33,398 nucleotides of DNA from a virus, in the IMG/VR virus record IMGVR_UViG_3300017726_000034, positions 1 through 33,398 of that record. One strand, written 5' to 3'. Both the position numbers and the translations under genes were made by a program. A model generated the notes under the pieces. It was not told the DNA's origin. It searched no databases and was given only the letters and a program-made list of their open reading frames with translations. Positions 5,140 to 7,873 of the stretch are shown piece after piece (position 1 is the first letter of the stretch; every line of letters starts with the position of its first letter).

Positions 5140-5328
5140 ATGACACGCAATGAAGCAATCAAAGCAATAGTGCATCTTGAAACAACTGCCGAATATTATT
5201 GCGCCGAAGGCAGCAAGCGACAGCGCAATTACTTAACCGACGCCTATGTCCTGCGCATGCAACAACAACCACCGGAAACGCGCAAGTTATATGAATTGCA
5301 ATCTATTTTACGCATGGCGCGTACATAG
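5140..5328 (+). CDS. Small hypothetical protein
   Basis: A 62-residue soluble, mostly helical-looking protein (starts MTRNEAIKAIVHLETTAEYY; basic and Gln-rich middle). Not recognised. It starts two bases after the previous stop and has a GGGG-type ribosome site. Its TAG stop (5326-5328) supplies the first base of stem II of the hammerhead ribozyme that follows, so a terminating ribosome would cover part of the ribozyme. Confidence 0.65.
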   Translation: MTRNEAIKAIVHLETTAEYYCAEGSKRQRNYLTDAYVLRMQQQPPETRKLYELQSILRMART

Positions 5329-5391
5329 GCCGAAACATGGCGCGGCACCGTCGCGCTATGTCTGACCGGTAATGCCGGCACTGATGAGGCC
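5328..5391 (+). ncRNA. Type II hammerhead self-cleaving ribozyme
   Basis: All invariant hammerhead core nucleotides are present. Reading 5' to 3': stem II strand GGCC (5328-5331), GAA (5332-5334), stem III of ten pairs (5335-5344 with 5352-5361, one G-U wobble, 7-base loop) closed by the required A5335-U5361, then cleavage nucleotide C5362 in a GUC triplet. Stem I follows (UG and CCGG, 5363-5369, pairing CCGG and CA, 5375-5380; bulged A5365; UAAUG loop), then CUGAUGA (5381-5387) and the second stem II strand GGCC (5388-5391), giving the standard G-C pair next to each core strand. The open stem is II, so this is type II. An extra U-A and A-U pair (5325-5326 with 5393-5394) may extend stem II past one mismatch. 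It is in sense orientation in operon 1, 63 bases upstream of the next start codon. Cleavage would give a downstream mRNA with a 5'-hydroxyl and a stem I hairpin at its end. Confidence 0.93.
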
Positions 5392-5397
5392 CATCAG
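5381..5397 (+). promoter_or_regulatory. Alternative hairpin that would sequester the ribozyme core
   Basis: CUGAUG (5381-5386) is perfectly complementary to CAUCAG (5392-5397) across a five-base loop AGGCC. This six-pair local hairpin uses the catalytic CUGAUG and places the stem II strand in the loop, so it is mutually exclusive with the active hammerhead. It could make cleavage conditional, or be fortuitous. Confidence 0.5.
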
Positions 5398-5424
5398 CAA
5401 CCCATGACAAAAAAGGATCAGATC

Positions 5425-5727
5425 ATGGAACACTCACACGAAACCCGCGAATTGTACCTGTACGCATTGAATGATGCCGATCTGTACCGGCAGCAACGCG
5501 AAATCATAGAAAAGAACCTTCAAAAGCGTTTTGATGCTGGCACATACAACCGCACCAAGGCCGTGCAGCTTTGGACATACTTTGCCAACAATGCCGCCAA
5601 GAAATACCACAAGGATTTCTGCGGCAACGGCAAATGGTATCAGATGTTCGGCGTCATGGATCGTCTTAACATGGCGATATTGTGCGAGGAAGAGCACTTT
5701 GAGCTTATGAAAGTGAGGGCAGACTGA
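5425..5727 (+). CDS. Hypothetical protein, first gene after the ribozyme
   Basis: A 100-residue, probably helical protein (MEHSHETRELYLYALNDADL; aromatic-rich YFANNAAKKYHKDFCGNGKWY in the middle). Not recognised. I chose the ATG at 5425 because AAAGGATCA (5412-5420) lies five bases before it; this motif precedes several genes of this phage. An in-frame ATG at 5404 has no such site. Its mRNA would begin at U5363 after hammerhead cleavage, giving a 62-base structured leader. Confidence 0.75.
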   Translation: MEHSHETRELYLYALNDADLYRQQREIIEKNLQKRFDAGTYNRTKAVQLWTYFANNAAKKYHKDFCGNGKWYQMFGVMDRLNMAILCEEEHFELMKVRAD

Positions 5728-6883: not shown

Positions 6884-7066
6884 ATGACAGCAGAACAATT
6901 CAAAGCCGAAAGGCAGAGCCTTGGCTTATCACAGGCGGCAATGGCAAAGCGCCTCGGCGTTAGCTTACAGGCCGTTTACTACTACGAGACAGGACGGCGC
7001 AAGGTGCCGCAGCCTGTGGCTTTGCTGATAGCTTGCCAGAAAGAGCAAGGCAATGAATCAGCATAG
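6884..7066 (+). CDS. XRE-family helix-turn-helix regulator (small)
   Basis: A 60-residue protein that is almost only the HTH: LGLSQAAMAKRLGVSLQAVYYYETGRRKVP (about 13-42) is a textbook XRE/Cro fold with the second helix QAVYYYETG. It has no dimerisation or cleavage domain, as in Cro-like proteins. It is near the end of operon 1 and overlaps the next gene by 14 bases. It is a candidate binder of the ATATTT/AAATAT palindromes at 4804 and 7395, which would make operon 1 autoregulated. Confidence 0.88.
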   Translation: MTAEQFKAERQSLGLSQAAMAKRLGVSLQAVYYYETGRRKVPQPVALLIACQKEQGNESA

Positions 7067-7486: not shown

Positions 7487-7873
7487 TCAGAAGGGAATCG
7501 CCTCGCGCACGATGTAGAACCACGTTGGCAGAGAAACCAGCACCGTTGCATCTGTGCCGGTAAACTCAAGGTTTACATGGCGCAGGTATAGCTTGCACAC
7601 AGGATCTTGGCGGTCGTACTTGTAGATCAGCAGCGGAGAAAGGTCGCCAGCAGCGTTCACAGCTTGCTGCCACCATGCGTCAGCCCCGCCATGTGGCCCT
7701 GTGGCATACCGTTTACATTCGATTGACCAGTAAGGGATGAGGATATCAGCACCGCCCTTCTCTTGATATTGAGAGAGGTTGCGCCGCACGTTCTCATAAC
7801 CCAGGTGGTCTTTGATCTCATTGCAGCACCATCTTTCGAATTGACTGCCTTTGTTGCGTTGCATCTTGCTCAT
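7487..7873 (-). CDS. PD-(D/E)XK endonuclease, Holliday-junction resolvase-like
   Basis: A 128-residue nuclease with motif RNKGSQFERW (Glu13), RRNLSQYQEKGGADI (Asp43) and IECKR (Glu52, Lys54): the E...D...ExK pattern of archaeal Hjc-like and phage PD-(D/E)XK resolvases. A conserved Gly-Gly-Ala-Asp precedes the core strand. It may resolve branched recombination intermediates, complementing the nuclease and annealing protein of operon 2. Its start is adjacent to the previous stop (TAA then ATG). It is the last gene of the three-gene leftward cassette. Confidence 0.87.
   Translation of the reverse strand: MSKMQRNKGSQFERWCCNEIKDHLGYENVRRNLSQYQEKGGADILIPYWSIECKRYATGPHGGADAWWQQAVNAAGDLSPLLIYKYDRQDPVCKLYLRHVNLEFTGTDATVLVSLPTWFYIVREAIPF

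Follow-up and report, generated by a model that had tools for sequence, protein, structure and literature searches.

A predicted type II hammerhead ribozyme between phage genes, with a tail that may fold its core away

The function of hammerhead ribozymes in phages is still unsettled (PMC6155905). Perreault et al. showed in 2011 that examples of the type II hammerheads of bacteria and phages cleave, and already suggested that these ribozymes process transcripts into single-gene messages (PMC3088659). The phage DNA analysed here (the window, 33 398 nucleotides, IMG/VR record IMGVR_UViG_3300017726_000034) carries such an element between two small genes, and the bases that follow it are complementary to its catalytic core. 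What would a ribozyme do at this gene junction, and why is it followed by the complement of its own core?

The marine phage is an HTVC010P-like podovirus, with a major capsid protein 71% identical to that of Pelagibacter phage HTVC010P. The GC content of the window phage is 50%, and for an HTVC010P-like podovirus of this composition the host is probably not Pelagibacter. No family of PHROG or Pfam was matched by genes 2 and 3, and blastn with the region and tblastn with gene 3 gave no match among isolate phages. The most likely start of gene 3 is ATG 5425, behind the AAGGA motif; it is preferred because the longer alternative, ATG 5404, is not conserved in the loci L005 and L012. The label of early operon, given in a preliminary description of the locus, is plausible from the position and the small-gene content; a scan of the plus strand upstream of gene 1 gave no sigma-70 promoter match. 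Further along the window are a putative phage endonuclease of the PDDEXK_15 family (7487-7873, minus strand; Pfam PF24608) and a 60-residue protein that looks, by eye, like a Cro/C1-type helix-turn-helix regulator (6884-7066, plus strand).

The element covers positions 5328-5391 of the plus strand and reads GGCC, GAAA, stem III hairpin, UC, stem I hairpin, CUGAUGA, GGCC (table 1). All hammerhead core bases are present in type II order (CUGANGA, GAA, A15.1-U16.1 and a cleavage base H17), with stems I and III closed and stem II open. Stem III has ten pairs when A15.1-U16.1 is included (5335-5344 with 5352-5361, one of them G.U), stem I is UG-a-CCGG/CCGG-CA with A5365 bulged, and the triplet at the cleavage site is GUC (5360-5362). 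Between its end and the gene 3 ribosome-binding site lie 21 bases.

Table 1. Features of the junction between genes 2 and 3 of the window, with the parts of the putative ribozyme and its tail.
Feature	Position	Strand	Remarks
Gene 2, upstream	5140-5328	+	62 aa; stop TAG 5326-5328, its G being the first stem II base
Stem II, 5' strand GGCC	5328-5331	+	C5331 is C11.1; stem II covaries in the class
Core GAA and A15.1	5332-5335	+	GAA 5332-5334; A15.1 is 5335
Stem III hairpin	5336-5360	+	5336-5344 with 5352-5360; loop 5345-5351
U16.1 and cleavage base C17	5361-5362	+	Predicted cut between 5362 and 5363
Stem I hairpin	5363-5380	+	5363-5364/5379-5380, bulge A5365, 5366-5369/5375-5378; loop UAAUG
Core CUGAUGA	5381-5387	+	U5385 is the free position 7
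Stem II, 3' strand GGCC	5388-5391	+	G5388 is G10.1
Anti-core tail CAUCAG	5392-5397	+	Can pair with CUGAUG 5381-5386; A5393 with U7, C5392 with G8
Ribosome-binding site AAGGA of gene 3	5413-5417	+	From sequence
Gene 3, downstream	5425-5727	+	100 aa from ATG 5425

An Rfam search with the element gave no match at the gathering score. The model Hammerhead_II (RF02276) scored 17.9 bits against a cut-off of 37, which is a detection threshold and not a defining feature of type II hammerheads. This silence means little, since the same model recovers 4 of the 39 structure-filtered hammerheads in ten loci; the window and every copy with an anti-core tail (see below) in these loci fall under its threshold. 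We take the low score as a weakness of the Rfam model. Type II hammerheads were gathered by pattern from viral contigs and also from genomes, with three real stems required, which left 581 non-redundant elements. A covariance model of 34 aligned hammerheads, with the window's own family excluded, recognized the window element with 55.2 bits (E 5.2e-14) and found no second match in the window up to E 10. Stems I and II covary across the 34 relatives, with all cells paired. With the same model, no hammerhead was found in three HTVC010P-like isolate genomes (HTVC010P itself in part only).

Six contigs carry the element at the orthologous place, with changes confined to the loops, the bulged A, the length of stem III, and position 7 with its partner in the tail; in L175, an A-U pair replaces the G.U of stem III. 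The element is thus almost certainly a type II hammerhead, its cleavage being predicted from the intact core. The preliminary description had placed a complete type II hammerhead between genes of one operon, in sense orientation. Each part that it named was recovered by our analysis, as was the position between two genes of the same direction, the model from unrelated phage hammerheads giving E 5e-14. The search with Rfam models that it proposed failed at the cut-off; it was the covariance model (55.2 bits) that succeeded. The core, which it expected to stay intact in close relatives, does so: the free position 7 alone varies, jointly with its tail partner. Blastn with the element returned only chance matches of 18-19 bases, and a match to the Rfam L17 leader (19 bits, cut-off 34.9) was dismissed as a chance overlap with GC-rich hairpins.

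About 90% of the collected phage type II hammerheads follow an open reading frame that stops at the ribozyme border (at least 50 codons, ending between 40 bases before and 12 bases after the border), most commonly with the last base of the stop codon as the first base of stem II. That the element sits on a stop codon was correctly described before; this placement, called notable there, is the norm of the class. In 129 of 131 loci with several copies, the copies lie on one strand; the median spacing is 543 nucleotides. Some phages have a hammerhead for each gene: in L530 (3035-6289), eight of type II separate successive small genes over 3.3 kb; some of these copies have an anti-core tail and others have none, and their shared leader ends in AGGAGAACCAC.

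Hammerheads nearly identical to that of the window follow genes of nine families and precede genes of five. In L175, L195 and L201 the gene in front is gene 2 and the genes behind are different ones, and in L002 and L003, where the gene 3 protein is 91% identical, the hammerhead is replaced by another sequence with inverted repeats. Unrelated neighbours, together with replacement beside gene 3, indicate that the element is tied to the junction between genes, not to any one gene. Distributed in this way, it has the look of a movable punctuation mark in polycistronic phage transcripts.

The bases CAUCAG directly behind stem II (5392-5397) are the reverse complement of CUGAUG in the core (5381-5386), a match that the preliminary description did not see. 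It places the window in what we define as the anti-core subclass: N'UCAG, 0 or 1 bases past a four-base stem II, with N' pairing core position 7. The resulting hairpin occupies C3-G8 of the core with a stem II strand in its loop; with C3-G8 paired and that strand looped out, it excludes the active fold. For a 131-base transcript, the predicted minimum-energy structure holds the anti-core hairpin and not the hammerhead. The tail is present in 49 of 478 sampled type II hammerheads (about 10%) and in 28 of the 81 whose stem II is GGCC. The motif UCAG is concentrated at a single offset, one base past stem II (41 copies, against 0-8 elsewhere). A second anti-core class, with UCAG beginning within stem II, was considered and rejected, since position 7 does not follow there (G with C7 in 7 of 12).

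Position 7 is the sole free base of the core. When this position and the tail base x of xUCAG were both left free, x was found to pair position 7 in 103 of 104 non-redundant hammerheads (U-A 50, C-G 49, U.G 4; one U-U), a count of sequences and not of independent events. C7 faces G in 49 of 49 cases, and U7 faces A 50 times, G 4 times and T once, across 15 different intervening stem II sequences. Where an extra tail base is present, it is a C opposite G8 in 20 of 21. Among near-identical copies, both bases switch together in all 43 pairs that differ at position 7 (again counted as sequences), and the two one-sided changes both give U.G. In relatives of the window, the core CUGACGA goes with the tail CGUCAG, and L449 and L487 differ by this double switch at position 7 and the tail plus one other base. 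Purines are common at position 7 in type II hammerheads overall and practically missing from the anti-core class, where A-U or G-C pairing would be possible.

The paired bases lie only 7-8 nucleotides apart and are tightly linked, so a count of sequences does not tell how many switches took place. There were at least two independent double switches (the window family; L449/L487), and probably more, because three loop I backgrounds of the window family, and paralogues in L498 and in L530, each show both states. The count of anti-core helices in the 34-sequence alignment is biased, its rows having been picked for the match. Outside hammerheads, the pattern CTGANGA-4-xTCAG gave mixed pairs (12 of 26 matching), a control in which some entries may be missed hammerheads or related copies. 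The claim therefore rests on the free-base scan and the joint switching.

These same data bear on two other readings. The first is an ordinary type II remnant that has lost its function, its tail matching by chance; the low Rfam score would suit it, but the core bases are all kept in relatives while the loops vary, and neither the single offset of UCAG (41 versus 0-8) nor the joint switching (43 of 43) is what chance would give. The covariation refutes it, and we attach next to no probability to it. In the second, the conserved inverted repeat CTGAY-N6-RTCAG serves as an operator in the DNA, or as a protein-binding site in the RNA, with no RNA fold acting on the ribozyme. The match is short, and a DNA palindrome would couple both bases too. 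Against this, the repeat lies on the core of the ribozyme, with the variable strand of stem II as its spacer, and the pairing extends to G8-C. Among 154 distinct elements, moreover, one-sided changes gave U.G six times and C.A never, which is expected of, and points to, pairing in the sense RNA. An operator or protein site is accordingly quite improbable. The anti-core pairing itself is, with little doubt, conserved. On the comparative sequence evidence, the RNA can either cut itself, as predicted, or fold its core away, and evolution has maintained the second fold. The ribozyme is of a known kind; the anti-core hairpin is new as far as we found, with no mention of it in the literature searched, many subscription papers lying outside that search.

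In most type II hammerheads, loop I pairs with the bases just 3' of stem II, which makes cleavage faster (PMC3088659). The tail might thus work within the active fold by pairing loop I, since the published pseudoknot sits at the same place (PMC3088659) and the window allows three pairs at most (AUG 5372-5374 with CAU 5392-5394). Matches of at least four bases between loop I and the tail are, however, depleted in the anti-core hammerheads (11%, against 22% when permuted) and enriched in those without the tail (48% against 17%). The pseudoknot is a feature of the majority of published examples and does not define the type. Moreover, the tail base goes by core position 7 rather than by the loop: in the window family, both states of position 7 and its tail partner are found with each of the loops UGAUG, UAUCG and UUAUG, so that the tail tracks the core. 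Loop I pairing is therefore a very improbable role for this tail. Depletion with the anti-core tail and enrichment without it indicate that the same stretch of RNA is put to one of two uses; the anti-core tail and the published pseudoknot are alternatives. L192 and L212 have no anti-core tail but a separate GC-rich hairpin (GCGCCCCUGGGGCGC and GCGCCGUGAGGCGC) immediately past stem II. The idea taken from these two, that all type II tails form a hairpin of some kind, was rejected (4.0%, against 5.8% of control stretches).

What, then, would the second fold do? We favour a model in which the ribozyme punctuates the polycistronic transcript and the anti-core hairpin locks the downstream product after the predicted cut, and rate its chances as about even. 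Stem II would close and the RNA would cut between C5362 and U5363, as the intact core suggests. Judging from the anatomy, the upstream message would then end in the stop codon and hairpin III with a 2',3'-cyclic phosphate, and the downstream message would begin with a 5'-hydroxyl and hairpin I; with a closed hairpin on either side of the cut (stems III and I), cutting and end capping would be one step. Finally, the freed core CUGAN of the downstream product would pair with the N'UCAG tail, holding the stem II strand in a short loop. Folding energies suggest that this would weaken rebinding of the upstream piece, make the cut one-way by stopping re-ligation, and give the message a 5' leader of two hairpins in front of the ribosome-binding site. 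For the 3' fragment, core pairing is predicted at 1.00 in the anti-core class and at 0.43 in the others. Native anti-core tails weaken the predicted association of the products by 1.7 kcal/mol, whereas the native tails of other hammerheads strengthen it by 0.8 kcal/mol. It is the core pairing near 1 and the affinity lowered by 1.7 kcal/mol that favour a role after the cut. Against locking stands the small share of sampled hammerheads with the tail (about 10%), since it shows that locking is not needed by all; nor does the element occur in the three HTVC010P-like isolates (of HTVC010P, in the part covered).

The folding energies speak against locking as well: in the window, nearest-neighbour energies, which leave out the tertiary contacts of the hammerhead, favour the hairpin over the uncut hammerhead by 3.0 kcal/mol. 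A hairpin favoured before the cut would better suit the main rival, an off-switch in which the anti-core hairpin disables the ribozyme in the uncut transcript until the state is relieved or set by another event, for example the end of translation at the overlapping stop codon, the action of a protein, or the speed of transcription. The minimum-energy structure predicted for the uncut RNA does contain the hairpin, and the hammerhead comes out worse by a median of 3.3 kcal/mol in the anti-core class and 1.8 in the others, although these energies, too, omit tertiary contacts. Stem II and GAA would lie under a ribosome that stands on the stop codon, and a stop adjoins the ribozyme in about 90% of cases; but stop codons adjoin tailless hammerheads as well, so that the two features are not linked, and the mixture of copies with and without the tail in one phage would be odd for a common control signal. 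We regard the off-switch as possible, though on the unlikely side. Less probable still is a natural bistable hammerhead, in many phages, whose core has evolved to switch between cutting and self-masked states as set by termination at the overlapping stop codon. If this were true, message cutting would depend on how the upstream gene is translated.

Whichever role applies, the anti-core tail is a specific structure, backed by covariation, that any account of phage hammerhead function must explain. Most of the phage hammerheads tested here, moreover, escape the Rfam type II model. The window element resembles published type II hammerheads in its core, its open stem II and its closed stems I and III (RF02276), and in lying between small phage genes, with several copies flanking single genes (RF02276; PMC3088659). 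It differs from them in its tail, which complements the core and covaries at position 7, whereas theirs is described as forming a pseudoknot with loop I that promotes cleavage.

In phage T7, the host protein RNase III cuts the polycistronic early mRNA between genes and leaves hairpins on the new ends. The arrangement proposed here is similar, with a polycistronic transcript cut between genes and hairpins left on the ends; unlike in T7, the RNA would cut itself, giving 5'-hydroxyl and cyclic phosphate ends. In viroid RNAs, alternative folds silence hammerheads, the competitor being the long rod-like fold of the circular RNAs. As there, a competing structure would mask the core outside the cleavage step; unlike the viroid rod, it would be a local hairpin of five or six base pairs in DNA phages, made of the core and the five or six bases that follow.
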